Of a DNA stretch of 64,000 nucleotides, positions 5,562 to 40,762 are shown piece by piece (positions within the stretch are counted from its first letter, which is position 1; each line of letters opens with the position of its first letter). Source of the DNA: Pseudomonadota bacterium (GTDB taxonomy: Bacteria; Desulfobacterota; Desulfobulbia; Desulfobulbales; Desulfocapsaceae). The notes under the pieces were generated by a model, which was not told the DNA's origin, searched no databases, and was given only the letters and a program-made list of their open reading frames with translations. The stretch lies in NCBI GenBank assembly GCA_018821985.1, contig JAHJKP010000012.1, positions 1 through 64,000 of the forward strand, read 5' to 3'. A program made the position numbers and the translations under genes.

Positions 5562-5577
5562 TGAGAGAGTAAGATAG

Positions 5578-6452: not shown

Positions 6453-6547
6453 ATGATATCCTTGCTGTGCTGATTTTAGCGGCGGCATTATTGAGGTGGA
6501 CGTCCCATATATAAACTTTAGCCATCTACCTTTACAAATCGGCCCCA

Positions 6548-7744
6548 CTATTTATGAAATCTGAAAAATACTTCGGACCAGGGCTTTAATTCGATAGATA
6601 ATGGGTCTTGCATATACTTTGCACTCAGGATTCTGCATTGATCGTTTTTGTTAAAAGGGCCGAGTATTTTTCGTAATGAAGGATCGTAAACGACAGCAAC
6701 TCTCTCCCCATTATTTGTTTCTGCCTCAAATCCATATTCAGTCGGTTCACAGGCAACTGACAGCTCGATATCTATTGGTGCCTTATCTTTACCATTATTA
6801 ACTTGAGGATGATTTTTCTTTTGCCAATATTTATCGCAAAACTGGCGTACGTCACAAAAAACGCAATGGGTACCGCAAGTTGTTTCTGCAGGAGAATTAA
6901 TTAACTGTGTAGACGCTGCCGATATTCTTGCCAAAAGCTCCTCTTCGATTTTTGTTAGTAACGTTTGGGAGAGAGAAATGGTTTCAACATATTGCGGATA
7001 TCGAACTTCAATTCTTGAGGGAACTACTCCTGTTTCTTTAGCCCATAGCACGGCATAATAACCAACTTGTTTTATATGATTATCGTTTTTTTTCCCGGTT
7101 TTGAAGTCTACGATTGTTACTTCTCCCCCATCTTTCCATACTAAGTCTATTATGCCGAAGAAGGAGATATCTCCATTCCCAATGCGGCATTCTGTAAGAG
7201 CATTATATTTATCAATCAGCTGGGCAGGATTTTTATCATGTCCACCATGGTTCTCGCCATTATACGCTGCGATAGTTACATCGGTTGGGAATGAATTGCC
7301 TGTCGTCACCTGGCAGTATTGGTTTTTAAATAATCTTATCACCTGATTTGTCAGTTGCTGGATTGTCGATCGAAGTCGAAAACCGTTCCCTCGTGGATGT
7401 TTGGAAATTTTATCTTCATGTTCAGCGATGAGAATCCCGACTGTTTGTTTTATATCAACTTTCTCCACACATTCTTTAAACTTTGGTGTCCCAAATTCAG
7501 GTAACCCGATTAATGAAAGTGCTTTGAATAGCTTGTCCAAGATCGAATGAACGATATTGCCTTCGACCGCAGCTGGCGTCGGTCTTTCAGGAAAAGAACG
7601 AAGGGTAGGAGTATAGCTCGAGTTGGCCAGCTGCCATTGCAGAGGGCATCGTTCGATGGCCGTCAGGGAAGAGTAGCTGAAATATTTTGGCACGCCTGCC
7701 CACTTAATTGGCCCTGTAATTCTATAAAAATCGTACCCTTGCAA
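6548..7744 (-). CDS. RecB/Cas4-like PD-(D/E)XK nuclease with Fe-S cluster
   Basis: Predicted single-strand-directed exonuclease of the RecB/AddB/Cas4 group. All family landmarks are visible in the 398 residues: H66 in GNIVH, D200 in the GIIDLVW strand, D213 and K215 in VDFKTGK, and Q226/Y230 of motif IV. Four Cys placed as in AddB and Cas4 (C33 far upstream, then C294, C297, C303, with C290 nearby) predict a 4Fe-4S cluster holding the fold. The start is TTG with GAGGA five bases upstream, inside the end of the preceding gene. It is the last gene of the long minus-strand operon, 14 bases after the 1941-aa helicase, so helicase and nuclease may act together on DNA ends. Confidence 0.8.
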   Translation of the reverse strand: MQGYDFYRITGPIKWAGVPKYFSYSSLTAIERCPLQWQLANSSYTPTLRSFPERPTPAAVEGNIVHSILDKLFKALSLIGLPEFGTPKFKECVEKVDIKQTVGILIAEHEDKISKHPRGNGFRLRSTIQQLTNQVIRLFKNQYCQVTTGNSFPTDVTIAAYNGENHGGHDKNPAQLIDKYNALTECRIGNGDISFFGIIDLVWKDGGEVTIVDFKTGKKNDNHIKQVGYYAVLWAKETGVVPSRIEVRYPQYVETISLSQTLLTKIEEELLARISAASTQLINSPAETTCGTHCVFCDVRQFCDKYWQKKNHPQVNNGKDKAPIDIELSVACEPTEYGFEAETNNGERVAVVYDPSLRKILGPFNKNDQCRILSAKYMQDPLSIELKPWSEVFFRFHK

Positions 7745-7758
7745 GACAGTCCTCGTTA

Positions 7759-10700
7759 CTAAAGTTGAAGTGCGGCAAAAGAAGAGGGCAAATCATGCAT
7801 AAGGGTAAAGGTATCCAATGTGCAATATTCCACCATTTCACGCTCTGCAAATTCCTGAACACAAGAGTTTAACGCCTCTGGATCGACGAGTGGATGGTGA
7901 ACATCTACCCATATTTCAGAATTGTCTTCTCTTTTAATAACTAAAGGTATTCTGACTCCGTTACGCTCTGGATCGCTGTAGTATTCGATCTCTTTCAATC
8001 GCAGTAACTCTTTCAAGGAATCCAATGCGTGGCTTTTGTCTTTCGTTGTTAGCTCAGGAGAACGGCCATACATAATATAAGACAGTAAAGCTAAGGCAAG
8101 TTTACGGTCGAGTGAAGAGTGATAGAAGTTGTTAGCAAAGTGGCGGAGACAGTTGTAACAAGATGTCTCGCAATCACAGGCTGATAAAAGCTTTTCTGTT
8201 TGATCTAATACTTCTGTCAGTCGTTCTTTGACCAATCGTGTGTAACCGGCTCCACCCGGTAACAAGTCGTAGAGAAAAAGTTGAGCATCATTAGTATGCG
8301 CACCCAATACTGGGCTCCAGTTTCCTGACAATTCACCTTCTTCGATCTGTAATGTTCGCGATGCTGCAAGACTGATAGCTTCGACGAGTGACGCAAGTGC
8401 TGCCCTGCCTGGCCGTCCCGATCTGAGCGGTGTGTCTGCAGTTGAACAAATGAACGGCGCGTCCATTCTGACTTGCATCAACAAGACATCCGTAGGAAAC
8501 TGGTGCCCGAGGAAATAAGGCCCCCTGGCCTGCCCGCTGCAAATCACCCCTTGTTCTAAAGGGTTATTGTGTTGTCTTTGGACTCCTCCACGGAACATGA
8601 TGGAATTCGGGTAATTCTCTCCAAACACCGGTTCTGTCCTCCCGCAATCAGGACAGACCATAAATCCACGATTATTTATCCCTTTATTGACAGTTACCAG
8701 CCGTTGTGGTCTGGCCAATAAAGCTAATCTCCCTGAGTAGAGTTGTTCATCCCAACTTGATGGGGGCTCTTGAACCTCTAATTGAGCCTTGGATGTCATT
8801 CCCGCCCAGACAGGGGCTTCACCACGATCCACCTCTGGCCGGATATTAATATCCGGCGCAAAGCCTTCAGGTGTTATGAAACTTTGTCGAGACAGGTTCT
8901 CTCCGCTACAACATGGACAGGCGATCATAGTCTCCGCTATTTCTTCCAGGCTTACATAACCACAATCAACACAAGCAGTATAAGACTGTGCTCGTTCGAG
9001 CGTGGCCTCGACGTCAGGGGCATAGGGGGAATAAATGGCAGCAGAAACAAACCGGTGTTTGTCTATTGTCAAACTGCTCCCTGGTGCAAATTCTGAAAGA
9101 GCAATTTGGAGGTCCCTCTGGGGCTCATATTCGAAGGTTCTTTTGTAAGCCGGATCACCGGGATACTTGCGCCTGGAAACATAAAAAGCCACGACATCTG
9201 TCGGGAAGGCATATCGAGGCAAAATAGCCCTACCAATTAGACATCCTAAAAGTGTCTCTTCCAATTGCCGTTCCAGAGATTCTCTGACCACACCTTCCAA
9301 CTCTTCTCTATTGGCGTAATCACCTATAGGTAGGGTTTCACGCAGTCGTTGCACAAGATGAATTACACACTCCTGAATAGTATCCCGAACATGTTCCTCG
9401 ATATTTTGGTTCAAACCATAACTGAAAACAGGCGCCCACGTGGCTATTTCTTTTTTTAGTTGTTCCCCCTTGTCTTCTAGCCAGGAAAGAAGACTCCCGA
9501 ATGAACATTCATGGGTACCTGAAAGAAACTGTTCAACAGTCCCCAGAGATTCGAACAATTGATACGTTTCTGTCCCTGTCAAAACTTTTTCATGGAAGAA
9601 GCGCTGGATAAGAAAAGCACAAATATGTCTCCGAAGTACCTGTTGGTTTTCTACATAGACTACGGGAAGTTCGACGTCACCGGAAATAATGAGACCTGGA
9701 TTATTGTAAAAATGTGCATCATGGGATGTCCCATGAGCGTAGGTGATAACCGAGGCTATTGACCTTCCTCGCCTGCCGGCACGGCCAGCCCTCTGCTGGT
9801 AATTTGACACATGAGGAGGGACATTTCTGAGTGCGACTCCTGAAAGAGATCCTATATCAATTCCCACTTCCATAGTTGTCGTACAGCTCAACACATCAAT
9901 GGGAGGCTCGTTCGCGAATGGGATGTCTTGAAAACGAAGTTCGTATTGCTCTGTTTTGTTAAAAGCCGTCTCGTCGTTTTTTCCGTTTAATTGTGCGGAA
10001 TGCTCAGCTGTCACCAGCCCGAACGGTTCGAAACTTTTTTCATCAAACGCCCTTGATATTTGTTCTCTGTAAAAACCGGTTCTTGTTTCAAGGTAATCGC
10101 CCTCAATTTGATTGACCTGTCCCAGGCAGGCAGGACAAATTCCCCGAATTACATCTGAATAAAGGCGGCCGCAATCAGAGCAACACAACCACGTCGCTTC
10201 GAGCTTTAAACTTAGGTGTAAACCAAGTGGTTGTAAAAAATACCTATTGTTCTGAAGCCGTAAAAGCTGAGAAGCCCGGACATGCTCAAGCAACCATTCA
10301 ATAACACGTTGTTCGTAATCCTTGTTTTCGAAAACAGAAGAAAGATATTGTCGGTATTGCTGAGGAACAACGTGGGTAGGATTGTTTATGTCGATACCAT
10401 CCGGTCTGTCCCAGCCTTCACCCATCTGGTAGATGTCTGCTCCCTGGGGCAGAAAACGCCTCATCTCGAGTTGAAGCCGTATCCAGCTTCTAAAGAGAAT
10501 TTCCTTCTCAGGCTGCGTCAAGCCAACTTCTGGGAATTTTCTGAATATGATAGCATTGAGTACGGGGTCTTCTTCTACTGAGGCAATTCCGAGGGCATTC
10601 AGCGAATAATACCTGTCTGTCATTTCGCTGAATAAATGCTTGGCATAGGCTAAAGTTGGCTGTAAGAATCCTTGGTTCAAGTCCTGGACTAATTGTTCTA

Positions 10701-13584
10701 AAGATTTTCCGTCTGCGTCCTGCAATTGCCTTAGAAAGATTTTATCTTCGTCGTCGGCTGGTGACGGAAATATATTGACTCCTTTATCATTACAAACTGA
10801 AAGGATGGCAGGATAAAGGAGGTTCATTCCTCTCCCTATTGCATGTTCACTTAATTTGTGTGAAGCAATTGCCAGAACCTGACGAAAGAGATCTCTCGAA
10901 TGGCTGTGCTCGAGAGCCGGTGCGAGCCGTGCGGCCTTTTGTCGACCGTCACTGAAAACGAGGACCTTTCTTCCCCTATTAGGAAGAGACTCGTCTTTGC
11001 TTTGTGGTGGCTGCTCGGAAAACTGAGCTTCGATGAGAGCCGTAAAGGGTTGTTCGCCTTTTGTCCGAAAGTTAGAGATCCTGCTTGAAGCCCGTGAGCT
11101 TGGCGACTGGCACATAGGGCAGTGAGAGAATGCAGCTTCTCTCTCATTTTCTGTATTTCTAAATAGCCACAGAGACCTGGTTTCATTTTCAGGAAAGGTG
11201 TTCTCTATGTCGACGTACCCCGTCTTCAAATGCACCCGGATCTCTTCCGCCATAGTTGCGTGTCGGGGGGGAGCAGGTAACAGCTCGACCTTTATGAGAT
11301 TACCTTGAGTCTCACCCCAGAGAAAATCCAACCCTTCAATTGAATTTGAAGGAAAGTAAGCATAAAAATAAGGACTCCCACAGCTTCGACAGGATGCCAA
11401 CTCTAGTACCCGCGAACCACAAGTGTCGCACGTCATGCGTGGATCACTGAACAGTTTTCCAACCATCGCCTGCTCGCCAGGCTTTTCCTGTCGACCCGAG
11501 CAAGTTGTATTGATGCAGCCGTAGAGGGCGTTCAAACCTCGAAACATGATATGAATCCTGGCCGGCACAATACCTGGTTCATCTCTATTTTTCCTTGCGA
11601 TGGCCCCCAAGGTTAGCAATACTTCGGTCGCTTTTACAGCCCGTGGATGTTTTAGGAATATCGCAGCAGCAAGTTTGCTGAGTGACTTTGCCTCAACAGA
11701 TGTTTCTTTAAGAAGAAGGTTCACGAATGGCTTGTCAAATAAAACTTCGTTGAGATGCCTTAAGATGCCACCATCAGTTGTTTCGGTGCATGGCATGCTG
11801 AAATATTGGAAGAGTGGCTTTAGTGCTACCAATAGTGTTTCAGGTTCTGCCGAAGCATGAAGGCTGTCCAAATCAACTGCGGCAAGTATGTCAGCCAACT
11901 TCGATTCAGCGGGGGCACATTTTTCAGGAACACTACGATCCCCGGTAATGGGAACGAAATTATCAGGACGTTTTCCTGTCAAATCGGCAGCAAACAGGCG
12001 GATGTTATCTTTTGCTTTTTCACCTTTGCCAAGGGAAGCACTGGTGCAGATTACGCGAAGCTTTTCCGGCTTATCGTTGATGCCAAGCCGTGCGCACAGC
12101 CGACGCAGGAGAAAACTAACCTCCGCACCCTTAGCCCCCCGATACATATGGGCTTCATCGAGAATCAGGATAAACTGGTTACCTTCTTTCTTAAGCCAAT
12201 CGGCTGTCTGTTTAAATATTGGCCGTTCAAAAGGGCGTAAAAGCATATATTCCAGCATGGAATAGTTGGTGATAAGTATGTCTGGAGCGTTTCCTGGATT
12301 AGACCCTGCTCCTCTCACCATCTCTTGCCGGATTAGAAGTTCACTATCGGAAGGATCCGTATGTAATCTCCTGTCCCAGTTATTTTTCTTATACGTTTGG
12401 CCGGTTTTCTTGCCGCTCCGGTAAACCCGTTCCTCCTCGAGCTCCCTGGCGTAAAAGTTATGAAGATTTTTGGCAGGATAGCGACCTCTCCTTTGTAGTT
12501 CCTTCCTTAGGTCAGCGTCCATGTTGGTGTAATATTCAAGCAGCGGCCGTACCCGTTCATTGTCTTTTCCAGATGTCCGAGGCCCAGGGTACGGCGTCCG
12601 GCCGGTGTACATGCCGAACAATGGATGGCGTGTTCCTTTGCCAGACTGATGGAACAAGTCGTGCAAGCTTGGATCTCCGAAAAGGAGTCGAAGCCTGGAT
12701 AGCTGATCGTTGACCAACGCATTCATAGGGTAAAGTATCAATACCCTTACTCCGGGCTCGGCAAAGGACTGAGGTCTGGTGCTGGCCTCGTCGTAGAGCG
12801 CGCCGAGAATAGGGAGCATAAAACATTCAGTCTTACCCGAACCAGTTCCGGTGGCGACAATTATATCTTTTCTGTTGATTAGGAATTCCTGTAGCGCTTC
12901 GGCCTGATGCTGGTACATGCCAGGATAAAGCAAGGGTTTCTGTTCTTCGGCTTCTGCCCACTGTTGATTTGTCTCTGAAAGTGTTTTGAATAATGAGCCT
13001 ATATGATCCGGTAGCCCGAGCGTATCGTAACTGCCGTCAAACCCTTTATACCTCGGGGTCGTTTCAACAAAGGCTTCTTGGGCAATCAATCGACCATGTT
13101 GCGCTTCACGAAGCAGACACCTACGGGCTTTTACGATAATCGGATCGCTCAACGGATAGGCACTCTCGATATAACTTTCCAGTTGATGACGAAGACGCGA
13201 AACGAGACGGGTAGGTGTATATTTTTCACCTTCTACGTCTTGTCTTTTATAGGTGATCTTTTTCGTTTTGCCGGTGGGGCTTACATTCTCAGGCTCGGAC
13301 TCTTTCTTTTTTTTGCTTATTTTCTCAACTGGTTTGACAAGCTGTCTTTCAATCCAGTCAGATAATTCCTTGTCGACAGTGTCTGTATGTCCAGATATGC
13401 GGCCGTCTAAAGATTCCGGGCTTTGGCCTGCAAAGAGCCGATCCAGAAAATCAGACGTAACCTTCGTCACGCCGGTAAAATCGAGAGTATTTTCATCCCC
13501 AAATTTTCTCGCGACAAAATCAGCGTCATCCAGGTCGTTGAGAACTCCGCTATCAGAGTATTTTTCCAGATTTAAAATTTTCAA
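7759..13584 (-). CDS. Giant DEAD/DEAH helicase with STAS-like N-terminus and DUF1998-like C-terminus
   Basis: A 1941-residue SF2 helicase. Residues about 30-52 (NTLDFTGVTKVTSDFLDRLF) look like the STAS-like DUF4325 motif. The helicase core follows: Walker A near 246 (GTGSGKTE), DEAH near 475, motif III CTSAS, and motif VI near 1270 (QRAGRAGRRGRS). Several Cys quartets in the middle and C-terminal parts (for example CDTCG..CRSCG and CSDCG..CPACL) look like zinc ribbons. The C-terminus near residue 1808 has the CDCETSCYNCLRHF pattern of DUF1998. This helicase-plus-DUF1998 layout recalls DruE of Druantia and the split DrmA/DrmB pair of DISARM, but neither system's other genes are present. It overlaps the upstream UvrD-type gene by 4 bases. 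Confidence 0.8.
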   Translation of the reverse strand: MKILNLEKYSDSGVLNDLDDADFVARKFGDENTLDFTGVTKVTSDFLDRLFAGQSPESLDGRISGHTDTVDKELSDWIERQLVKPVEKISKKKKESEPENVSPTGKTKKITYKRQDVEGEKYTPTRLVSRLRHQLESYIESAYPLSDPIIVKARRCLLREAQHGRLIAQEAFVETTPRYKGFDGSYDTLGLPDHIGSLFKTLSETNQQWAEAEEQKPLLYPGMYQHQAEALQEFLINRKDIIVATGTGSGKTECFMLPILGALYDEASTRPQSFAEPGVRVLILYPMNALVNDQLSRLRLLFGDPSLHDLFHQSGKGTRHPLFGMYTGRTPYPGPRTSGKDNERVRPLLEYYTNMDADLRKELQRRGRYPAKNLHNFYARELEEERVYRSGKKTGQTYKKNNWDRRLHTDPSDSELLIRQEMVRGAGSNPGNAPDILITNYSMLEYMLLRPFERPIFKQTADWLKKEGNQFILILDEAHMYRGAKGAEVSFLLRRLCARLGINDKPEKLRVICTSASLGKGEKAKDNIRLFAADLTGKRPDNFVPITGDRSVPEKCAPAESKLADILAAVDLDSLHASAEPETLLVALKPLFQYFSMPCTETTDGGILRHLNEVLFDKPFVNLLLKETSVEAKSLSKLAAAIFLKHPRAVKATEVLLTLGAIARKNRDEPGIVPARIHIMFRGLNALYGCINTTCSGRQEKPGEQAMVGKLFSDPRMTCDTCGSRVLELASCRSCGSPYFYAYFPSNSIEGLDFLWGETQGNLIKVELLPAPPRHATMAEEIRVHLKTGYVDIENTFPENETRSLWLFRNTENEREAAFSHCPMCQSPSSRASSRISNFRTKGEQPFTALIEAQFSEQPPQSKDESLPNRGRKVLVFSDGRQKAARLAPALEHSHSRDLFRQVLAIASHKLSEHAIGRGMNLLYPAILSVCNDKGVNIFPSPADDEDKIFLRQLQDADGKSLEQLVQDLNQGFLQPTLAYAKHLFSEMTDRYYSLNALGIASVEEDPVLNAIIFRKFPEVGLTQPEKEILFRSWIRLQLEMRRFLPQGADIYQMGEGWDRPDGIDINNPTHVVPQQYRQYLSSVFENKDYEQRVIEWLLEHVRASQLLRLQNNRYFLQPLGLHLSLKLEATWLCCSDCGRLYSDVIRGICPACLGQVNQIEGDYLETRTGFYREQISRAFDEKSFEPFGLVTAEHSAQLNGKNDETAFNKTEQYELRFQDIPFANEPPIDVLSCTTTMEVGIDIGSLSGVALRNVPPHVSNYQQRAGRAGRRGRSIASVITYAHGTSHDAHFYNNPGLIISGDVELPVVYVENQQVLRRHICAFLIQRFFHEKVLTGTETYQLFESLGTVEQFLSGTHECSFGSLLSWLEDKGEQLKKEIATWAPVFSYGLNQNIEEHVRDTIQECVIHLVQRLRETLPIGDYANREELEGVVRESLERQLEETLLGCLIGRAILPRYAFPTDVVAFYVSRRKYPGDPAYKRTFEYEPQRDLQIALSEFAPGSSLTIDKHRFVSAAIYSPYAPDVEATLERAQSYTACVDCGYVSLEEIAETMIACPCCSGENLSRQSFITPEGFAPDINIRPEVDRGEAPVWAGMTSKAQLEVQEPPSSWDEQLYSGRLALLARPQRLVTVNKGINNRGFMVCPDCGRTEPVFGENYPNSIMFRGGVQRQHNNPLEQGVICSGQARGPYFLGHQFPTDVLLMQVRMDAPFICSTADTPLRSGRPGRAALASLVEAISLAASRTLQIEEGELSGNWSPVLGAHTNDAQLFLYDLLPGGAGYTRLVKERLTEVLDQTEKLLSACDCETSCYNCLRHFANNFYHSSLDRKLALALLSYIMYGRSPELTTKDKSHALDSLKELLRLKEIEYYSDPERNGVRIPLVIKREDNSEIWVDVHHPLVDPEALNSCVQEFAEREMVEYCTLDTFTLMHDLPSSFAALQL

Positions 13585-15674: not shown

Positions 15675-15676
15675 AG

Positions 15677-16705
15677 CTAACCCTGTTTCAACTTTATTCC
15701 AAGCCTGTCTTCGGTTATTTGACATGCTTTCGACCATAGATCAGACGGTATTTCAAAACAATAATAATTTCCTTGTTTACCAGTGTATTCGCCAACGGTT
15801 GACAGATACCTGTACTCTGCAACAGGGAGAAATCCAGCAATTCTAAAAAATACCCGGTCTTTTTCTCTGGTGAGGGAAACCGGCACAGGATTGCCAATTA
15901 TTCTGTCCATGGCAAACATCGTACGCCGGGCATGGTCAGAGTTTAGCTTTATACAAGGGTTCATGGACGGTGACTTCCCAGAGGTCCAAGCGAACAGATA
16001 CCAGCCCCTTTCGTGCCATGCTCGCCAGAGCCTTCCATGCTCTTCCGATCCGGATTTTTTCCAACGATCGTTTTGCGGTTTCCCTTTTGCTTCCGATTTA
16101 TAGGATTGCCAGACGTCGTTAAGCCCGTTGTCCAGACTTCCAGCAGGAATTTTCCAGCTATCGTTATCGAGCATAACATCCAAAGAAGACAGCCATTCCG
16201 TATCTGCACGAGGAGTTTTACTTAAGCCGGCCCACCGTTCTGGATTGAGTACGATACCGCCTAGTTTTGCTATTTTGTCGGAAATACTATCCTGGTCTTC
16301 ACTGCTTGAAAGGAGGCGGTTCAAGCCCAAGGAAAGCGGCATTTCAGGAAAAGTATCAATCAATTTTCGTGAGGCGACACTGCCATGCAGGCGATAACGG
16401 CCTTCACCAACTCGAATTGCTCGAAGAGGGGATGCCGCTACTTGTCCTTTTGAGCCACAAGTTACGTCACCATTTAATTCGAGTTCTGCTAAAACCTCTT
16501 TTAGCTCGTCGATACTTGTTTCCTGCACCGGTTCCAGCGTTGAGATAACTTTGTTGCATAGAGCCCGTGTGGTACAAACCAGACGGGCGGCCAGTTCGCT
16601 TCGCAAAGTTTCAGCAAGCAGATCCTTGCTGCCCAGGGCCGTGCCAATGTTTAACAGCTTCGCAGCGGAAATTTCCTGTGGATTAAATAAAGTTGCCGTC
16701 ACCAT
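15677..16705 (-). CDS. Unknown operon protein, 342 aa
   Basis: A 342-residue soluble protein I do not recognise. The first ~115 residues are helical and then beta, in an order compatible with a winged-helix domain (LKEVLAELELNGDVTC..GRYRLHG). The rest is Trp-rich and without known motifs. It starts inside a TAATG junction with the stop of the S24-domain gene, so it is translationally coupled to it, and ends 2 bases before the RelE/UvrD fusion. Tight packing implies it is a needed component of the operon rather than a passenger. A DNA- or partner-binding adaptor is a guess. Confidence 0.6.
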   Translation of the reverse strand: MVTATLFNPQEISAAKLLNIGTALGSKDLLAETLRSELAARLVCTTRALCNKVISTLEPVQETSIDELKEVLAELELNGDVTCGSKGQVAASPLRAIRVGEGRYRLHGSVASRKLIDTFPEMPLSLGLNRLLSSSEDQDSISDKIAKLGGIVLNPERWAGLSKTPRADTEWLSSLDVMLDNDSWKIPAGSLDNGLNDVWQSYKSEAKGKPQNDRWKKSGSEEHGRLWRAWHERGWYLFAWTSGKSPSMNPCIKLNSDHARRTMFAMDRIIGNPVPVSLTREKDRVFFRIAGFLPVAEYRYLSTVGEYTGKQGNYYCFEIPSDLWSKACQITEDRLGIKLKQG

Positions 16706-20762: not shown

Positions 20763-20772
20763 CTGCTACCAA

Positions 20773-27947: not shown

Positions 27948-28007
27948 TCTGATGTCTTCCCTGGCCACGGTGCAGGGCTCCAAGTGTCTTTCGTTTCTTT
28001 CGTAGGG

Positions 28008-34000: not shown

Positions 34001-34487
34001 CATGCCGCAACTGTTGGCCGCGGGCGTTGCCGTGCAGTAGATGAATCTCGTCAACAACAATGGCTCTAACCCCGGCAAGGCTTTCTGGCCTGACGAGCTG
34101 AAGAGAGTCTAACGCCTCGGGAGTTGCCAGGATGAGGAAAACATCTTCAGGTTCGGTAAATTCATGACGGTCACCGGTATATCTGCGGATAGCTCCAGGG
34201 GCTCTTGTGCAGAAATAGGTGTCCAACCGGTGGAAGAGATCATTTACGAGGGCCTTTGTAGGGGCTACGTAAACTACAGAAGCCTGTTGACGTTTAAAGG
34301 AGACGTGCCGCTGATAAAGAGGAGCAACCGCCGCCTCGGTTTTCCCAGATGCGGTTGGACCGGAAAGTAAAACTGATTCACCCCGCACGAGGAGAGGCAT
34401 TGCCTGTTCCTGAATATGACGGGGCTTCCTCTTGTTGAAGAAAATAGGCCATGCCTGCGGCATTGTTTCAGAAAGGCTTTTCTTCAT
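28008..34487 (-). CDS. Double helicase: Lhr/BrxHI-like DEAD plus SNF2 domains
   Basis: A 2159-residue protein containing two complete SF2 motors. The first resembles Lhr/BrxHI helicases: Walker A SGPTASGKT (~42-50), DEIH (~149), TSTLEVGIDIGD and LQRIGRGNR. A long unknown linker (about 600-1080) follows. The second is SNF2-like: LCDGVGLGKTY (~1125), VDEAHNFRS (~1232), and a C-terminal half with LAEGVNLQDA and QRSGRIDRRLNP (~1859). SNF2-type proteins occur in DISARM (DrmD) and Dpd (DpdE) and DEAD-type ones in BREX type 2 (BrxHI), normally as separate genes. It is preceded after 7 bases by the BrxD-like gene, which fits the BrxD-BrxHI pairing. Confidence 0.85.
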   Translation of the reverse strand: MKKSLSETMPQAWPIFFNKRKPRHIQEQAMPLLVRGESVLLSGPTASGKTEAAVAPLYQRHVSFKRQQASVVYVAPTKALVNDLFHRLDTYFCTRAPGAIRRYTGDRHEFTEPEDVFLILATPEALDSLQLVRPESLAGVRAIVVDEIHLLHGNARGQQLRHVISRIERNSSKPKNPKDVFQKIGMTATLQNMLEVGRLWLGDNVLTVQAGEARDIDISYLPVGIAAGSEKPLESAAVIADWLKKSKTAKVLVFGNTRNNTQTIAAKLHELLQGERWPVHWHTGVLAASERERVEGAMKKDPFGVCVATSTLEVGIDIGDIEAIVLADPPYSINGFLQRIGRGNRKTDTCRVIALYSTPQELALFHALHDSACNGILDDVHDYDRPSVRFQQILSYAWRGVSRDNKPLTMQNLEERTGVHGHEPVVNDMLKTGALENHRGALIPSIDLMDQGEKRKIHTTISGSATMTMVDSSSGETLIATSGQNVTSGALFVGGKMKQVTSHVDGTVSLEKGRAGQQLSALPATRGRRGLSRRIIWALAETSGYDPHHWSYEGNRLTTWGGSDYNQLFAIVLKRFGVARDVVADEYCISGVPSGTDISPQQLRSWTETLMRSQDIPVKDAQKFCDRSRYFSHLSNDMQAEEAFRSIPFQGFLSWLQECDLSAETATEDASDSAEENTPSEIVTLKNNPSSVIKTELRITWRDEASKKPARLYARALTSHLFAAACSVSGKTSEAPWLKDLNLDDCAALLRDRAEITLNFTSSGKVDGLAENWTLTVGGDNGNTIDLVVSPFQPLNQATIFSFVETFQWFQAQPEILSPVGLIALARNAHGLHFQAFHTLVGLAFACGAGVTAELNIKDDSETPVASWQSEDPGETGHTMSPVYSFAGNSLWLTETIENPQEKDRLWFTLFDPATTSEAIQPWLQREFWNEKISACCSQESQDAQKLSALLAEHLPFSFKVDITPLDEVADTPLMVPQQEGTVMILSPGSATVSIGLDLNQPTDVLEKAVMHAIAHLLCGHIRPADFYGHTDTIDSITGHGYLKRWDIEASEIFKSSYRSGIAECTTEEKAMLGLWRMIGEMLGESRRLHPRAEAYQRSAYQRQAAQRLLAQMEEFGGAMLCDGVGLGKTYIATTVMVHYANAWRDTHHDCPDELLADPFRITVLSPNSVVSTWQREAIPSLAAHGLPLATVRIISHSRLSRITKTSEILEAPSIRELSDMEHLLLSDLVIVDEAHNFRSLNARRSVVLRDLLRLQPRREKRRLVLLLTATPINNTLDDLKQETALLFSKPFWLSNAVTDDGYRRQGLKEVSDRCVKAKSPKGPKGDVAPLLIHGQADARFSMANDFRDDLDFGPNVQRLGDYLKEQDKKLKNLQQEIRAIAENSGQRATAEPARIAEELLDRIVVQRSRDLCKEIERQQGTDVELLFRADAGLPEKLRYSDEYDGTHDILAGFLPLFDHDGGCSSGQQPLSLKVYMWYDVREGIKSSEEISSVVGLQRILVLKRLESSPVSFLITLLRLTVLHAYRLQNLVDLCARVGAHERNTTLRKEIQRTLAFHNKKDLDKIISLATADAPGQSNFDFLDHLARAYEAKIPAAEADDTPVQLSLFESEDSSSLTAREQLDRLWDLKDFLLQDFTTLLSVAPGLADVVFGKFDRTEWPHHFTRGGEEVNWPKSPAWGLRVVTDAKLRALVSRLLLARREGQKVIVFCQFSDTLAYAHSVLRATSAFTMEEWRMVLPALGLPDLNDREVRELIKVTAVITGGTEDRDEVVNAFAPYYRIGPFPPATEVTEDGVQTNIFGGVTTAWSTAWRNALQHPIHVLFSSDVLAEGVNLQDATVLVNFDIHWNPVRMIQRSGRIDRRLNPRIEKSRTFPELEALAREMKVAVTPYYWHDREKEATLTVNMILPDELETELLLRERIAMKTLAIDFTLGLDQGTGAEADWMADYAYQGVSSLNAFQKDRAIEQVAGFHEKFRRIFKERGIQPEWAANLNSWFRAGAADSTSPLVGRALLGRRGETIERYERFSRYLEPALKDGEPCWCWAEKIPGESLYDGWLIMDGKAEHWPPPLPTREIDFHTQAASPIKASHLLAASLQLEQGIELRALVPQEFVKPFMQGATALAAPKLGSDEDRVNIGFSDIYILQLPVLDPEKLGRKIS

Positions 34488-34494
34488 CCTTTAA

Positions 34495-35964
34495 TTATTC
34501 CCAAGGCAATAGTTCGCTGCCGGTTAACTGTCTTGCTGCTGTCTGTAGGTGTCCAATCAGATCTTCAAGGGAATCAGCATTTTCTGCTAAGACTATGGAT
34601 GGGCATAGGCAAGCTATTTTTACCCATGTGCGAACGACGCAGTCGCGTGAATCGGTGCCCTCGAATTCATTTGCAAGCGCGTTTGCCACCTTTTGGCGGG
34701 CGGTCTCGGTAGAAAGCAAGGCACTCTTTTCCGGATAATGGGTGTGGAAATCTGTTAACAGGTTCAGCGTCCATGACCGATAAGCTTCCGCAGACGGTTC
34801 TGACAGGCAGACGCGGTCCTCTGGATTGTGCAGAAAGACACACGCGTCACGTAACGACAGGCTGTCATCTGCGAAGGTCTCCCCTTCGGTAAGCCCCACA
34901 TAAAGTCCAAAATGTGGCCCAGTGGTCCAATATTCCGGTAGCTGATAACCATGATCGTTCAGTACGGGACTGCTATCCTGTAACGGGAGGTGTGCTGCGC
35001 GGGCGAGAAGGTCGAAAAAATTGTTGGCTTTTTCTCTGCGCCGTACGTTGTACCCTCGCACATGTTCTGCTTCGTCCATAATAATCAGCAGTCCTTTATA
35101 TCCTAGGGCCTTACAAATTTCGTTCACAACGACCAGGTGAAAGACGTATATCTCAGCGTTTTCTCTGGTCTTCGGCATAATTGGGATAACACGAGAGTTA
35201 ATATTAGTGCTTTTGGCAAGGTCTCTGATGCTGCCTGAGCCGGTAATAGATATGCCTTGTCCTGCCAGCCATCCGCATCCGCTTACATAGTCTGGGTCAT
35301 CATTGTGAGGGAAAAACATAAGCGTTTCCAGGCCGTAGCGAAACCAAGGAGAGGCTTTCAGCATCGGCAAATCTCTAACTTTGTCCCAATTCTTTTTTAT
35401 TTCCCTAACAAAATCGTGAAAACCTTGAGATGCAGTCCCGTCTTCACGAGCAGGGAATTTGAGTTTCGACATGATCTCTCTGTAGACCAGATGCGGTTTG
35501 GCAGGGTCTACGGCCTTGAGATCTAATTCGAGATAAGAGACAGCCCATCCTGATCTTCTGGCAATGACGCTTGTAAGATGGAGATAATGAGATTTACCCG
35601 TACCGTAATTGCCGAAAACGACTTTACATAAACCAGAATTGGATTGACTGTCGAGGCTGGAACGGACTGTTGATGCAATGTTTTCCCCACCGATACTCAT
35701 CTCTATAAGAGACGAAGAGTCTGGGGGGACCACACCGAGGTTAACTGCCTCGAAGGCCTTCCGAAAAGCGACTTTATCTTTGCTTGCAGGTATATGGCTG
35801 TCGATGACCCGAGGACCGACTTCTTCCTTGAGGGTCAATTCATTAATGTTGCAGTCGATCTGTTCCCCAAAAAAATCTACAATTGCCATAGTCCCAAGAA
35901 GTTCGGTAACCTTGCCTGGGCCGAATTCAAGATGCTCAACAGATGTGCCGACAGAAATGGTCAT
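34495..35964 (-). CDS. BrxD-like P-loop ATPase with N-terminal SH3-like module
   Basis: A 489-residue P-loop ATPase of the DUF2791/BrxD kind. Walker A is at residues 118-125 (GNYGTGKS) and Walker B near 295 (LLIIMDEAEHV). Residues 1-50 form a small beta module (GTSVEHLEFGPGKV, then VDFFG) like SH3-type CarD/DUF3553 domains; a similar module opens the helicase at 38201-40714. BrxD is an ATP-binding protein of type 2 BREX systems whose biochemical role is unclear. It overlaps the 433-aa ATPase by 4 bases (ATGA) and is followed 7 bases later by the Lhr-like/SNF2 helicase. The two ATPases may form a hetero-oligomer. Confidence 0.7.
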   Translation of the reverse strand: MTISVGTSVEHLEFGPGKVTELLGTMAIVDFFGEQIDCNINELTLKEEVGPRVIDSHIPASKDKVAFRKAFEAVNLGVVPPDSSSLIEMSIGGENIASTVRSSLDSQSNSGLCKVVFGNYGTGKSHYLHLTSVIARRSGWAVSYLELDLKAVDPAKPHLVYREIMSKLKFPAREDGTASQGFHDFVREIKKNWDKVRDLPMLKASPWFRYGLETLMFFPHNDDPDYVSGCGWLAGQGISITGSGSIRDLAKSTNINSRVIPIMPKTRENAEIYVFHLVVVNEICKALGYKGLLIIMDEAEHVRGYNVRRREKANNFFDLLARAAHLPLQDSSPVLNDHGYQLPEYWTTGPHFGLYVGLTEGETFADDSLSLRDACVFLHNPEDRVCLSEPSAEAYRSWTLNLLTDFHTHYPEKSALLSTETARQKVANALANEFEGTDSRDCVVRTWVKIACLCPSIVLAENADSLEDLIGHLQTAARQLTGSELLPWE

Positions 35965-37262
35965 TCATCGTCCTCTGTTTCTGGTAATTCATGAGTCTGT
36001 ACGAAGTTTTCTGCCTGCTCAATCGTCAATTCCGTCTGATTATTTTTTTGCTGGTCGAGAAGACTACAAAATTGAAAAACAAAATGCCGAGGAGGAACTC
36101 TATCTGTTTCGAAATATTTGACATTTTTTAAGGCCTGAATAATGGCTTGTATGTTCGCGGACTGGATTTTTAAATCCCATTCGACCCCGTCGGCTTTGCT
36201 GAAAATAGCGAGAAGCTTTTCTCCTATTTGTGCTGTGATCTTCTCAGAATTCAAAGACTCGAGGACAATCAAAGGTGTCATCGGTCGGCCTGGGAAAAAT
36301 GCAACCGATCCTATCCGATCATCCAAGGCTTGATAATTTTGGATTACTTCACTTCTGAATGTAGGAGTAGCGGCATACAAAAACATGACACCCCCAAATT
36401 CACCTTCGGCGTTCTCATTAATCATCGTCAGCATATTCTCTATGGCTTGATGCCTAGCAACTGAACCTCTTCTAAAAGACTCTGTTCTTGTGCCTTCATC
36501 GAAAGCAATAAAAAACCCCTTAAAGCCCAAGCGATTGCGCAGAAACTCTATTACCGTTTTAAGACGTTTAAAGGCTGTCTCGTCCCGGGTTGGTTCATGG
36601 AGACTATAAAGTTCTTTTAAATTTTTTGATTTGACGTTTTCGCCCCGTACCCAGGAGAATAATTCCGTATCAGTGTTCGAGGGTTGGGCGCCACTTTCTA
36701 AATCTAAAATACGTTTTCCAAGTGCAAGAAGGGCGCTAGCCATTTGAGTGTCCGGTGCTCCATACCACACCTTATTAAAAGCCTGTTCTACCTGGCGTCT
36801 AGCTAACACTGGTATTTCTTGCCCTGTAGACCAACCGAGTTCTTTCAACTTGTCTATTGCCCAAGATTTCAGAAGAACTTCTATCCCTTTCCCTTCATGA
36901 CCCGAATATTTCCCGATCGGCGGCATAAAAGACGATACGATAGCTCTGAAAATAGCGAGAGGCGATTTGAAAGGGCATTCTTGTCCAATATTGACTATTG
37001 CAGTCACAATATGGTTTCTGCGTCCACGTTCTGCCAGACTATGAATAAATTGTGTTTTCCCACTGCCATAATCACCTTCCAAATATTTGAAACATGAAAT
37101 TCCTTCCGGCAACTCTTCTTGGAAGTAATTCTCTTCAAGGATAGTCAGTATCTTTTCGGTTCCTGCATTTATAAAATGAGCGTATTCACCTGGAGCTACT
37201 GGTGCGCTCATGAGTTTTTGGCGGATACGCTTGGCATCTGCTTTTGATATATTCATGGCCAT
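35961..37262 (-). CDS. BrxD-like P-loop ATPase (DUF2791-type)
   Basis: A 433-residue P-loop ATPase, close in length to BrxD. Walker A is at residues 63-70 (GDYGSGKT) and a Walker B-like FFIAFDEG lies near 250. The N-terminus (KRIRQKLMSAPVAPGEYAHFINAGTEK) and the linker to the P-loop match the DUF2791 layout. It lacks the SH3-like module of its neighbour. A strong GGAGGAG precedes the ATG. A 44-base gap separates it from the upstream unknown gene and it overlaps the 489-aa ATPase by 4 bases. Role inferred: ATP-dependent loading or signalling partner for the operon's helicases. Confidence 0.7.
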   Translation of the reverse strand: MAMNISKADAKRIRQKLMSAPVAPGEYAHFINAGTEKILTILEENYFQEELPEGISCFKYLEGDYGSGKTQFIHSLAERGRRNHIVTAIVNIGQECPFKSPLAIFRAIVSSFMPPIGKYSGHEGKGIEVLLKSWAIDKLKELGWSTGQEIPVLARRQVEQAFNKVWYGAPDTQMASALLALGKRILDLESGAQPSNTDTELFSWVRGENVKSKNLKELYSLHEPTRDETAFKRLKTVIEFLRNRLGFKGFFIAFDEGTRTESFRRGSVARHQAIENMLTMINENAEGEFGGVMFLYAATPTFRSEVIQNYQALDDRIGSVAFFPGRPMTPLIVLESLNSEKITAQIGEKLLAIFSKADGVEWDLKIQSANIQAIIQALKNVKYFETDRVPPRHFVFQFCSLLDQQKNNQTELTIEQAENFVQTHELPETEDDE

Positions 37263-37306
37263 GTTCCCTCTCTCCTCCCCAAGTATTGTGAAGTCTTATT
37301 ATGTTT

Positions 37307-38176
37307 TCAGGTTCGCTTTTTCATATAACACACCGGCCGGGACTGTGTTCCTTCCGCATTGGTAGGCATGTAAAAGACTTTAGCATTCTTTTGCAAAGCT
37401 TGATGTACTGTCGCTTGGGAAAAATCAAACTCAGTCTTGCCTTTATTTTGAGATCTTCGCCAGTTTATTACATTAGCAATAAACGCTGCCTCAGGGAGAT
37501 CCTCAAAGTTTCCTTTTTTGGGTGCAGCCCAGAATTTTTCTTGCTGGCCAGCAATTTTGTACATATTGGCAACATCGACAATCAATACATTGTCGCTTTT
37601 AGAGAATTCACGTGCGAGCAACCAAGCAATGTTGAGACAAAAATCAAATTTTTCGGCAGGAAGTATTAATTCTTGAAGTTGTTTCTCGGCCTCATGATAA
37701 CTTTTTACGAGATAGTCATAGTCGGGAGGGATTTTCGAGATAATTGGGTAATGTTGTGTAAGACACCACGACCAGTTCATGCCTGCTTTATCATTAACTA
37801 AGATGAGGCGTCCGGCAAAAAAAAGGTTGTCTTTGTAACCGCTAGTCTCTCCCTCTAGAGTTCTAAGCGTTTGGTTGGCCAATGTTCTTTGAGTCTCACG
37901 ATTTTTTAGTGCTGCTATCTCTTTGTCTAACTCTCTTCGTGTTCGATCAATTTCAGATCTAACAGGCATGGGGATTTTGGGATCATTTTCCAGCAGTTTA
38001 AACCCTACTAGTTCCATTTTTCTCTCAATAGGAGCGGGTGCCATCTCGAATTCTTTTGATCTTGTGTTACCTTGTCCTAGTATTCGGTACAGTTGGGCTT
38101 GATTACCTTTATGTTTGTTTAACATATCTGTGTTTCTTATGTATCTTTCAACCTCTGGGAATAGCGGTGTAGTCAT
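37307..38176 (-). CDS. Unknown operon protein, 289 aa
   Basis: A 289-residue soluble protein I do not recognise. Residues about 70-110 are a charged helix that could form a coiled coil. The C-terminal half has alternating hydrophobic strands (NVLIVDVANMY) that might be a Rossmann-like or nuclease-like core, with no catalytic motif I can name. The ATG at 38176 has a strong AGGAGG. It is the second gene of the long operon, between the SF1 helicase (24 bases upstream) and the BrxD-like ATPases. Confidence 0.6.
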   Translation of the reverse strand: MTTPLFPEVERYIRNTDMLNKHKGNQAQLYRILGQGNTRSKEFEMAPAPIERKMELVGFKLLENDPKIPMPVRSEIDRTRRELDKEIAALKNRETQRTLANQTLRTLEGETSGYKDNLFFAGRLILVNDKAGMNWSWCLTQHYPIISKIPPDYDYLVKSYHEAEKQLQELILPAEKFDFCLNIAWLLAREFSKSDNVLIVDVANMYKIAGQQEKFWAAPKKGNFEDLPEAAFIANVINWRRSQNKGKTEFDFSQATVHQALQKNAKVFYMPTNAEGTQSRPVCYMKKRT

Positions 38177-38200
38177 TAAAAATCCTCCTGCCCACCAAAA

Positions 38201-40714
38201 TTATATGGAGACAATTTTAATTAAATCCCTATCAATTTTCTGCAATGATTTTGGAGTTTCTTCACATAAGATATTAAGCTGCAGAGCTGGCCTTGATAAT
38301 GCTACATAGGCCCGATTTTTAGAATGTTTCAATGTCGAGCTTCCGATATCGTCCATTCCTATAACGAAACAAGCATCATACTCGAGACCTTTAATTCTTT
38401 CCACACTCGTAGTAATTAACTCATTTGAATTTGTGTGTGCTTGCCAGATCGGTGCTAAAGAAATCCCGAGGGTTTCAAGCTGTCCCCTATATTGCGCCAG
38501 ATTTTCTTCATCTTCATTGACTTGAATGAGGGCTATGGTTTTGATGTCTGGATTTCTTTTTAAAACATTAAGGCGCCGCTTAATTAACTCTGCAAAAGAA
38601 CTGGATCTTCCTATGAAAAGTACAGGAGTAGGGCCTTCCCGCACATCGTTTTCAGAAAAAGGAGCAATTTCACCAAAAACGTTTTCATAGAAAGAACGTA
38701 AAAAAAGACCGATTTGTTTGCTCTGGCGCATATTTTTTGCGAAAGGAAAACTCGTAAAAGCACCTTTGTCTCTTAGTGAACTCCCAATTCTAAAGGCTTC
38801 CGGATTTTCCATTCCCCATACCGGGGAGACTACTTGATGAAAGTCTGCAGCCACAGTAAACGCACCGTCAGGATGGACGAAAGAGCTGAGTAATGCCGCT
38901 TCAGCAACACATAAGTCCTGAGCTTCATCAATCATAACGTGAGTCCATCTTTTGTCTTCAGAGGTCCCAGCAATGGCTAGAGGATTAGGTATTTCTCGGA
39001 ATCGTTGTTTGAAATCAATTTCCGTTGGGAGGGAGAACCTTAACAGAAAGGCTAACCAGGGTTCTTCTTCTTTCCCGTAGGTTCTATGCTGCCAGTCATC
39101 TTTTATCCCGTCAAGAACTTCATCTTCTCTGATTTTGTGGCCAATACCATTTATTATGCGTTTCGTGCCTTGATAAAGGACATCACTAAAATAAGTTACG
39201 AGACCGTCGAAAGGGTCGTAGACCCAAAAAAGCCATTGTTGGAACTCTTGGTCGAACTTTTCGATTAATCCATCTTGTTTCAATAAAGTGCGCAACTCTT
39301 CGTATTCTTTGCGCACTCCAAAATAGATTGCGTCCATGTTAAATTTGGATGTCAAAGGTGCAGATGCTGTTTTTTGGGTCGAGGCCGTGAGGAGAGAAGA
39401 AACTAATTTTTGCGCACATTTTTTTGATTGTTGAGATGTGGCAAGATCGAACCATTTTGCCTGTTCTGCCTCCTTGAAACGGTCAGAAATTTGTGATTCG
39501 AAAATGAGCCAACAATCTTTTAAATCTTTCGAACTGCAGAGTCCCCAGAATGCTTGCCGACCTCTTTCTTCATAGATAAAGAGCTTTTTCCTTCGTACTT
39601 TTGCGTTATGCTTATAAAGCCATAACTCCCCTATGTATTGAGAGATAAAGGAATCCACCAAGGCGACAACGCTCGACGGGATATGCAGATCTTCTTCCAA
39701 CATGGATTTTGAATATTCGATCAAATTGCTGTTCGCCAAAAATATCCGGGTCAACTCTGGCGAATATCTAATATTACCTTGGTAATCATCCCGCAGTTCC
39801 TGTTGGTCATATAAAAAACGAATTCTCTGCATGGCAACGGTAGTTTTCCCACTGCCCGGAGCACCGCTTACCAACATCATCCCATTCATCTTGTTCAGGA
39901 AAGCTTCAACCTGTTCCCTGGTCATCTGCAACTTGATGGCCTTCAACCCTGTGGTTGGCTTCAATTCCGTATTGGGGCGGACACTGCCGCCTGGCTCATA
40001 GAGACCGGAAATATCTGGTAAGACTTGGGAAAACTTTGCCCGCACCAGTGGGGTAACCGATCGCAAAGTTAATCCACGATTATGGATGTCAATTTTTTCC
40101 CGTAGATCGTGCGACATAGCTAACTGAATTCCTGGATGAGTCCAGGCCAGAACCTTGACCAGTTCATCCCCTTGACCAAGCGGCAAGTTTGTACGGGTAT
40201 GTTCATTAGCATAAAAAAGCTGTTTTTTAAGAGTTACTCCACCCCCTTTCTCCTGGGTTTCTGTAAGCACCTCTGCCATGGCGTGAAAAGGCTGATGAAG
40301 AATAGCCTGAAGGCTTTCATGCTCCTTTATTTTATCGTTTTTTGAATTGCGGTAATTTTCAGAAACACCTTGGGTGATATCTGGTCGTTCGCTAAACGTG
40401 GTAAATGTTCTCAATGCATGTTGAGCATATTTATGAGCAGATCGCGCATTTTTTTCATCCCGCTGCACCCGTATTATCAATGATGAAGTATTGCCAACAC
40501 CCTCAGAAGTTTCCGACAAGGCGGGAGATGTGGTGCTAATGTCTCCATCAGACTGCTCTTCTACCTGCGTCAGGAAATGGGTATGGGCAGAGTATTCACG
40601 ATTTTCGTCATTCTTTGCAAAATAAACCTTGAGATATGTCCCATCGTTTTCAATCACCTTACCGATACCCAAATCCGGATTTTTAGAATTAATCACATGC
40701 ATGCCGAGTCGCAT
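38201..40714 (-). CDS. SF1 (UvrD-like) helicase with N-terminal SH3-like module
   Basis: First gene of the 13-gene operon. The 837-residue protein is an SF1A helicase: Walker A GAPGSGKTT near 285, DEAQDL near 595, and C-terminal motifs VERIKGLEYDA and YVALSRPALQL. The first ~45 residues (LGMHVINSKNPDLGIGKV, then VYFAKND) look like an SH3-type DUF3553/CarD-like module, also present in the 489-aa BrxD-like protein. Residues ~80-270 are unknown. Many stand-alone UvrD-like proteins of this kind act in defence systems, but which nucleic acid it acts on cannot be told. A GAGGT lies ~10 bases before the ATG, and a possible promoter and inverted repeats lie in the 248-base gap upstream. Confidence 0.8.
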   Translation of the reverse strand: MRLGMHVINSKNPDLGIGKVIENDGTYLKVYFAKNDENREYSAHTHFLTQVEEQSDGDISTTSPALSETSEGVGNTSSLIIRVQRDEKNARSAHKYAQHALRTFTTFSERPDITQGVSENYRNSKNDKIKEHESLQAILHQPFHAMAEVLTETQEKGGGVTLKKQLFYANEHTRTNLPLGQGDELVKVLAWTHPGIQLAMSHDLREKIDIHNRGLTLRSVTPLVRAKFSQVLPDISGLYEPGGSVRPNTELKPTTGLKAIKLQMTREQVEAFLNKMNGMMLVSGAPGSGKTTVAMQRIRFLYDQQELRDDYQGNIRYSPELTRIFLANSNLIEYSKSMLEEDLHIPSSVVALVDSFISQYIGELWLYKHNAKVRRKKLFIYEERGRQAFWGLCSSKDLKDCWLIFESQISDRFKEAEQAKWFDLATSQQSKKCAQKLVSSLLTASTQKTASAPLTSKFNMDAIYFGVRKEYEELRTLLKQDGLIEKFDQEFQQWLFWVYDPFDGLVTYFSDVLYQGTKRIINGIGHKIREDEVLDGIKDDWQHRTYGKEEEPWLAFLLRFSLPTEIDFKQRFREIPNPLAIAGTSEDKRWTHVMIDEAQDLCVAEAALLSSFVHPDGAFTVAADFHQVVSPVWGMENPEAFRIGSSLRDKGAFTSFPFAKNMRQSKQIGLFLRSFYENVFGEIAPFSENDVREGPTPVLFIGRSSSFAELIKRRLNVLKRNPDIKTIALIQVNEDEENLAQYRGQLETLGISLAPIWQAHTNSNELITTSVERIKGLEYDACFVIGMDDIGSSTLKHSKNRAYVALSRPALQLNILCEETPKSLQKIDRDLIKIVSI

Positions 40715-40762
40715 AATGTTGCTACCTCAATTGATTAAAGGGGACTCCCACTTTCAAGACAA

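Follow-up and report, generated by a model that had tools for sequence, protein, structure and literature searches.

The operon analysed here consists of 13 consecutive minus-strand genes (g1 to g13, numbered 5' to 3') in a window of 64,000 nucleotides, positions 1 to 64,000 of contig JAHJKP010000012.1 (assembly GCA_018821985.1, a bacterium of the Desulfocapsaceae), and its closest described relatives are Druantia, ARMADA, BREX, Shango, McrBC and the type ISP enzymes. Passages of two papers state that YprA-family systems have parts in common with BREX, that a DISARM-like cassette often adjoins McrBC, and that ARMADA type II and Druantia type III are synergistic against some phages (PMC12458937; PMC11090510). 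Parts of the one describe the ArmD protein of ARMADA type II as carrying a RelE-like domain (PMC12458937), and parts of the other describe superoperons that join separate systems (PMC11090510). A further paper puts forward the proposal that BrxD may load BrxHI (PMC12839542), and another characterizes DruE of Druantia type III as a helicase-nuclease engaging intermediates that contain single-stranded DNA (ssDNA) (PMC13192584).

The initial annotation of the window saw in this operon one composite defence system, or several fused ones, combining McrBC, an ISP-like methylase, BrxD-like ATPases, several helicases and a Cas4-like nuclease, and Pfam and PADLOC bear out each of these components. It also counted Druantia as absent, and on this point it has to be corrected: phylogenetic trees place g12 in the DruE clade of Druantia type I, an identity that had been missed. 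The gene order, the protein families, the catalytic motifs and the separate recurrence of the modules can be read from the sequences themselves, and our preferred reading, held with a little better than even confidence, is that of a single co-expressed, layered operon against phages (against foreign DNA) that would have been assembled by module capture.

The DruE clade and the Druantia-type genes

In an IQ-TREE phylogeny of 19 YprA-family proteins, g12 and a related fragment from genome G031 fell inside the clade of DruA-linked DruEs with an ultrafast bootstrap (UFBoot) of 100, and this clade stands apart from the ARMADA-like helicases. The placement held when ArmC and the type III DruE of E. 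coli ATCC 8739 were added (FastTree support 1.0, 21 proteins); the position of g12 as sister to all the DruA-linked DruEs of the clade had support of just 53 and 0.475 in the two trees. The DruA neighbours of these DruEs were annotated in L096, L097, L098, L100 and the outer L101, were recognised by Pfam and PADLOC in G134, and were found by similarity in L099. By these trees, g12 belongs with the DruEs of Druantia type I. Its superfamily 2 (SF2) motif I was missed by the pattern search and was read by eye as ATGTGSGKT.

The same trees bear on the reading of the operon as a member of McrBC-associated ARMADA type II, which we regard as very improbable. Both contain McrBC, a helicase of SNF2 type and one of the YprA family, a methylase and an ArmD-type protein (here g11), and a DISARM-like cassette is reported beside McrBC (PMC11090510; PMC12458937). 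However, g12 groups with Druantia type I rather than with the ArmC of E. coli ATCC 8739, g6 gave no blastp match at 1e-3 with two ArmB-type proteins, and the matches of g5 with two ArmA proteins were helicase-core stretches of 46-47 residues only. ARMADA type II membership was therefore rejected on the placement of g12 in the Druantia type I clade. A search of E. coli genomes with a Druantia type III stretch gave another locus, not the ARMADA island.

The DruD assignment of g10 comes from the PADLOC profile hidden Markov model only, Pfam and NCBIfam giving no match and one DruD tblastn query missing the gene. For g11, which has the RelE-UvrD fusion of ArmD-type proteins with a weak RelE match, Pfam scored ParE_toxin at 5.9e-4, below the cut-off, and its relatives score above it. 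The protein matched one from Pseudanabaena locus L102 at 34% over 703 amino acids (aa), the UvrD protein of a Deinococcus BREX operon at 32% over 703, and ArmD of E. coli ATCC 8739 at 26% in the helicase part only (residues 159-693), an ArmD in which a ParE domain goes undetected by Pfam.

The usual partners were sought by tblastn at 1e-3 against the window's own contig (176,761 bp), a search that is not very sensitive, its DruD query overlooking g10, and there was no match for DruA (four queries), DruB, DruC, a fused DruB/C-type protein or DruH, for BrxC, BrxX, BrxL, BrxB or PglZ of the Deinococcus type 1 BREX, or for ArmB or TerB (one query each). Among the 13 operon proteins Pfam DruA and TerB were absent, as was the PLD family from their Pfam matches, and the PADLOC matches listed for them include weak helicase-core matches to DrmA/DrmD. 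A complete BREX, Shango or DISARM system was thus rejected by the Pfam and PADLOC scans together with the contig tblastn, and the earlier statement that no full BREX, DISARM or Druantia gene set is present stands by the tests made (Pfam, PADLOC, tblastn), as it does for ARMADA type II and Shango. The narrower statement that DruA to DruD and DruH are missing is not supported: g10 is DruD-like (PADLOC 6.4e-13), whereas DruA, DruB, DruC and DruH were not found on the contig.

Layout of the operon and its other modules

All 13 frames are open over the roughly 34 kb, 6548-40714 in the open reading frame list, that the operon occupies (Table 1), and the tight same-strand packing described in the initial annotation was confirmed by junction measurement. 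Six junctions are overlaps, of 4 nucleotides (nt) at g3/g4, g6/g7, g8/g9 and g11/g12, 1 nt at g9/g10 and 61 nt at g10/g11, and the remaining six are gaps of 24, 44, 7, 24, 10 and 14 nt in 5' to 3' order. An alignment suggests that the real start of g11 lies 21 codons downstream (MKSVREIN; residue 22), so that the 61-nt overlap would become a 2-nt gap. A consensus scan of the minus strand found no terminator-like site in the six intergenic gaps. In two scans, promoter-like sites numbered 19 against 18.9 in shuffled sequence and 17 against 21.7, and terminator-like sites 29 against 19.6 (standard deviation 4.5) and 17 against 20.3. The transcript may end at the terminator-like hairpin downstream of the HU gene. 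A motif search recognised catalytic motifs in g1, g3-g9 and g11-g13, the pattern misses being SF2 motif I of g12 and Walker B of g3.

Table 1. Coordinates of the 13 operon genes and of other features of the window
Feature	Position	Strand	Description	Basis
g1	38201-40714	-	837 aa; RapA-type Tudor-like N-terminus, then superfamily 1 (SF1) UvrD/HelD-like helicase	Pfam
g2	37307-38176	-	289 aa; no recognised family	No match in Pfam, PADLOC, NCBIfam
g3	35961-37262	-	433 aa; BrxD/SngB-type AAA+ ATPase	Pfam BrxC_BrxD 6.6e-40
g4	34495-35964	-	489 aa; second BrxD-like ATPase	Pfam BrxC_BrxD 3.2e-16
g5	28008-34487	-	2159 aa; BrxHI/SngC-type DEAD helicase fused to RapA/SNF2-type helicase	Pfam, PADLOC
g6	23865-27983	-	1372 aa; N6-methyladenine (m6A)-type methyltransferase with type ISP specificity domain	Pfam Type_ISP_C 1.7e-73
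g7	20773-23868	-	1031 aa; McrB-type NTPase	Pfam AAA_5 4.5e-13; GPPGTGKT and NTAD motifs
g8	19401-20762	-	453 aa; McrC	Pfam McrBC PF10117 4e-76; VIDTK nuclease-type motif
g9	16705-19404	-	899 aa; S24 autoprotease-like domain at about 138-300, rest unrecognised	Pfam S24 0.006, below cut-off
g10	15677-16705	-	342 aa; DruD-like	PADLOC DruD1 6.4e-13 over residues 22-340
g11	13581-15737	-	718 aa; ParE/RelE-like domain fused to UvrD helicase (ArmD-type)	Pfam UvrD_C 8.7e-24
g12	7759-13584	-	1941 aa; YprA-family helicase (DUF1998/MZB), DruE	Pfam MZB 3.3e-13; PADLOC DruE1 1582 bits
g13	6548-7744	-	398 aa; Cas4/DruK-like PD-(D/E)XK nuclease, IVDFK motif	Pfam PDDEXK_1 1.9e-17; PADLOC DruK 6e-12
Possible 14th gene	6273-6548	-	91 aa; hydrophobic C-terminus; 1-base overlap with end of g13	No match in Pfam, PADLOC, NCBIfam
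HU gene	5841-6170		HU-family DNA-binding protein, downstream of operon	Pfam 2.7e-34
Terminator-like hairpin	5539-5562	-	T-rich tail; 10-pair stem, longest in two scans	Consensus match only
Gap upstream of g1	40715-40962	-	248 bp	Open reading frame list
Promoter-like site before g1	40815-40786	-	Number of such sites not above chance	Consensus match only
Four genes upstream of operon, right side	40963-44451	Same as operon	DUF4268 protein, two small unrecognised proteins, WYL-domain regulator	
Two large genes	45048-53938		1247 and 1716 aa; 4-nt overlap; mostly high G+C	Weak P-loop matches only
UmuDC genes	54308-56828		By tRNA-Pro and tRNA-Asn, right edge of island; ordinary chromosomal genes beyond	

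The first five genes centre on a pair of BrxD-like ATPases and a fused helicase. The leading g1 matched Pfam UvrD-helicase at 3.3e-9 and Tudor_1_RapA at 5.9e-5, slightly under the curated cut-off, with Walker A at 284; PADLOC called it GajB-like, and a HelD-like match of 8e-17 lies far under the cut-off of its model. Downstream of it, g2 occupies the slot that a protein of 281-305 aa holds before BrxD pairs elsewhere; homology of the two was rejected (hhalign probability 0.1), and an AlphaFold model of g2 made without an alignment was unusable (predicted local distance difference test, pLDDT, of 38.9). The ATPase g3 matched SngB at 4e-23 and BrxD at 3e-20 in PADLOC and has Walker A at 63, a pattern search for Walker B returning nothing; in g4, motif search placed Walker A at 118 and IMDEAE at 295, and the first 50 or so residues look, by eye only, like the Tudor-like stretch of g1, with no family match. 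Both halves of g5 were recognised (Pfam DEAD 1.2e-37 and SNF2-rel_dom 8.8e-9; PADLOC BrxHI 7e-61), and DExH-type motifs stand at 144 and 1231.

The methyltransferase g6 carries DPATGTGTF at 667 and NPPY at 802, and Pfam detected in it neither an SF2 motor nor a nuclease domain. Its relatives on plasmids, 15 listed of 291 matching records, are 34-42% identical across about residues 430-1361, and 11 of these 15 are annotated as type ISP. In codons 901-1200 of g6 the G+C content at third codon positions (GC3) is down to 0.27; this stretch reaches into the first part of the specificity domain (residues 994-1348), and the drop suggests an exchange of the specificity part. In g7, the long N-terminal part shows a weak PADLOC likeness to PD-T4-1 and PDC-S02 (7-138, 329-452).

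For g9, the catalytic Ser (GNSM, motif from 197) and Lys (VKKY, motif from 244) of a LexA/UmuD-type S24 protease domain are present, and alignment showed the dyad to be kept in all 11 relatives and in UmuD of the window (55604-56041). In the 7 of these 11 relatives that were scanned, S24 lies at the C-terminal end of a helicase. An Ala-Gly pair stands in 10 of the 11, the eleventh (L088) being a fragment, at the position where LexA-type proteins are cut. The seven scanned helicases are of SLFN-g3 type in four loci (L087, L089, L091, L094) and of ResIII type in three (L084, L086, L095); with their S24 domain, dyad and Ala-Gly site they are possible damage-responsive, self-cleaving helicases. 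An AlphaFold model of g9 made without an alignment was unusable (pLDDT 34.2). The candidate relation of g9 to DruB/DruC was not supported: its comparison with the fused DruB/C-type protein, the best of 17 hhalign pairs, gave an E-value of 0.011 over 81 residues, which is not significant.

Recurrence of the modules and weighing of the readings

The modules of the operon live apart elsewhere. Among Druantia type I loci, DruE is followed by a Cas4-like nuclease in G134 (L076/L077), with DruA and DruD upstream, and in Meiothermus locus L101 a Cas4-like frame, unannotated, stands directly after DruE (23373-24554). When the frames of 16 DruE-bearing loci of a viral collection were each assigned to their best match, DruA relatives occurred in 4 loci, DruB/C-type proteins in 4, DruD in 5 and Cas4-like nucleases in 2, the nuclease standing directly after DruE in L140 and L141; an ArmD-like protein with an SNF2 protein occurred in one (L152), and relatives of g1-g4 and g6-g9 in none of the 16, several of which are short or cut.

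The fusion of RelE/ParE to UvrD likewise has more than one setting. It adjoins a YprA helicase in two loci of Pseudanabaena whose gene content is ARMADA-like and which the tree sets next to E. coli ArmC; in a BREX operon of Deinococcus it lies between brxC and a methylase gene (L117:17842-19863); and in Thermomicrobium the one flank visible holds no defence gene. Pfam confirms the ParE domain in the UvrD proteins of all three. A g11 relative in G378 has no relatives of other window genes within 40 kb, and a scan of viral contigs with the RelE-UvrD alignment gave, among the matches listed, mostly short matches to the UvrD core. McrBC and a WYL regulator gene lie close to the Deinococcus fusion.

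A unit made up of BrxD, another BrxD-like ATPase and a BrxHI-type helicase of large size recurs in six genomes (G083, G078, G250, G081, G077 and G076; loci L080, L081, L083, L121, L123 and L124). Variable cargo genes lie between the ATPases and the helicase in G078, G081, G077 and G076 and none in G083 and G250; the second ATPase is interrupted in G250 and the helicase in G077 and G076. The protein of 281-305 aa precedes BrxD in four of the six units, the other two stretches being cut. The helicase frames measure 1111-2075 aa, some of them interrupted or cut, and in the two that were scanned, from G083 and G081, the C-terminal half is of SF1 and not of SNF2 type. This unit looks like an unnamed relative of Shango or BREX type 2.

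The genes themselves differ widely in how common they are. In the 257 genomes of the order, own genome included, in which the searches with g1, g5, g11 and g12 scored the best 2-4 first-look candidates per genome and weak relatives may escape, g1 matched its own genome only, g11 reached 1e-60 in 2 genomes, and g5 matched in 250 as a generic helicase, its top foreign matches stopping near residue 398. Matches of g12 at 1e-3 occurred in 159 genomes, mostly to the helicase core; outside its own genome only G134 (36%, residues 129-1915) and G031 (69%, residues 1-997) gave E-values below 1e-60. For g9 there were 13 of the 257, namely its own genome at full length, 11 at about residues 122-315 only (the S24 region) and one covering residues 44-122. 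A phylum sample (345 genomes, own genome included) held g12 in 1 genome at 1e-90 and g11 in 2 at 1e-50. Among 72,556 plasmid records, 1043 matched g5, 291 g6, 178 g8, 157 g12 and 140 g11; g1 and g9 each had one weak record, g4 and g10 had no match, and the upstream 21 kb had no near DNA match. A genome-contig collection scanned with g9 and g12 yielded no relative. This 13-gene set was absent from published titles and abstract openings among the matches listed, a coverage outside which subscription journals mostly lie.

Several of these observations weigh against a single layered operon. The complete 13-gene set was met in one genome only, so that selection for the set, or its conservation, is not demonstrable, and this single occurrence together with the separate existence of the modules is the strongest counterpoint. 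What the initial annotation had named as refuting its reading came out half on the refuting side: parts of the operon do occur separately, within known systems. GC3, at 0.36-0.40 in g1-g3 and g13, 0.44-0.52 in g4, g6 and g9-g12, and 0.57-0.63 in g5, g7 and g8, is by its spread of 0.36-0.63 a sign of separate origins. A g11-g12 pair about 68% identical to that of the window, and overlapping by TTGA just as it does there, occurs in G031 on a 4.9-kb contig that cuts both genes, in a genome of about 350 contigs where a contaminant is possible. When G031 was searched for g1, g5-g7, g9, g10 and g13 (g2, g3, g4 and g8 were not sought), g1, g6, g7, g9 and g13 gave no match, g5 matched a generic helicase only, and g10 gave one spurious-looking match with stops; within the limits of so fragmented an assembly, this suggests that the pair needs no partner among these seven genes. 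Lastly, g9 reads Ala-Ser at the site that aligns with the Ala-Gly of its relatives, and its self-cleavage is for that reason doubtful.

An explanation that we hold tentatively as second choice is that a BrxD-BrxHI system (g1-g5), a methylase with McrBC (g6-g8) and a relative of Druantia type I (g9-g13) were stacked head to tail, in one orientation, in a defence island, each acting on its own and having only a promoter in common. The BrxD-BrxD-helicase unit, Druantia type I with a Cas4-like nuclease, and RelE-UvrD each recur without the other blocks, GC3 steps lie near the block borders, and published superoperons unite separate systems (PMC11090510). However, a 4-nt overlap ties the second block to the third (g8/g9), another ties the methylase to McrB (g6/g7), and the Druantia block has no detectable DruA, DruB or DruC and has g11 wedged within it. 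The 4-nt overlaps that cross module borders at g6/g7, g8/g9 and g11/g12, taken with the insertion of g11 between g10 and the DruE gene, are the best argument that the genes would act jointly; we rank the co-expressed layered operon above stacked systems. A decaying or chimeric island remnant without defence function appears highly unlikely: the single occurrence and the failure to find DruA, DruB and DruC on the contig would fit it, but all 13 reading frames run uninterrupted through the 34 kb, and the catalytic motifs that were recognised appear intact, with two patterns missed.

In the layered operon that we prefer, g6 would mark host DNA with m6A, and the ATPases g3 and g4 would load the BrxHI-SNF2 motor g5 onto unmarked or abnormal DNA. 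McrBC (g7-g8) would translocate on and cut DNA with modified bases, a second layer against phages that evade the first by base modification. The Druantia-type core of g10 and g12, with the helicase g11, may act on the resulting ssDNA or on replication intermediates, and the nuclease g13 would degrade the strands. The likeliest sensor or switch is g9, which might answer RecA-coated ssDNA or cutting and would stand in place of the missing DruA, DruB and DruC; the RelE-like domain of g11 could serve as a last-resort RNase. In this scheme the single transcript, the sequence in which substrates are handled, the role of g9 as sensor and the phage target are what we infer. A stronger version strikes us as unlikely: the 13 genes would form a single integrated machine and a new type of Druantia, with McrBC and an S24 sensor of self-cleaving protease type in place of DruA, DruB and DruC and a BrxD pair loading a BrxHI-SNF2 double motor; if true, restriction, attack on replication forks and an SOS-like switch would be wired together in one operon.

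A number of the chief defence families built around helicases are seen here to trade whole modules within a single operon of tightly overlapping genes. DruE here works, if at all, without its usual partners, and the essential parts of Druantia type I become testable. Two further ideas can be tested on this locus: that RelE-UvrD serves DNA-targeting defences in general as an add-on, and that phage defence can be triggered by an S24 protease domain.

The setting of the operon fits a mobile or genomic island. To its left lie a gene for a coupling protein of TraG/TraD type and one for an HD-domain protein, and the two large overlapping genes on the right are possibly another defence pair. No exact copy of at least 14 bases of the tRNA-Pro and tRNA-Asn 3' regions, as an attachment (att) site might leave, was found elsewhere on the contig on either strand. 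A flank in common with a Pseudomonas putida Druantia plasmid was not supported: of 11 flank proteins, HU alone had matches at 1e-5 among the compared loci, namely in L126 and L088.

Comparison with known systems

Set beside BREX type 2, with its BrxD-BrxHI dyad, and beside Shango, the operon has the BrxD/SngB-like ATPase and the BrxHI/SngC-like helicase; it differs in having two BrxD-like ATPases and a helicase fused to SNF2, and TerB, PglZ, BrxC and PglX were not found with it. From DISARM it differs in that DUF1998/MZB is fused in g12 rather than divided between separate DrmA and DrmB, and in that the PLD nuclease DrmC was not detected.

The likeness to type ISP/IIG enzymes lies in g6, which joins an m6A-type methylase to a type ISP specificity domain, but has no detected SF2 motor or nuclease domain. 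Of McrBC the operon has the McrB motifs, including the NxxD type, and a McrC-family protein with a nuclease-type motif; here, in contrast, the pair overlaps a methylase gene upstream and the gene of an S24 protein downstream.

With ARMADA type II it has in common an ArmD-type UvrD protein by a YprA helicase, an SNF2-type helicase and a methylase. The YprA helicase of the operon is, however, of Druantia type I, its ISP-type methylase has no detectable similarity to ArmB, and its SNF2 part is fused to a BrxHI-type helicase; the gene order also differs, ArmD following ArmC in E. coli whereas g11 precedes g12 here.

Druantia type I differs from the operon in having DruA, DruB and DruC, none of which was detected here, and the operon adds the RelE-UvrD protein g11 between the DruD-like gene and DruE, with nine more genes upstream. 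The two are alike in the clade of their DruE, in the DruD-like gene upstream of DruE and in the Cas4-like nuclease after it.

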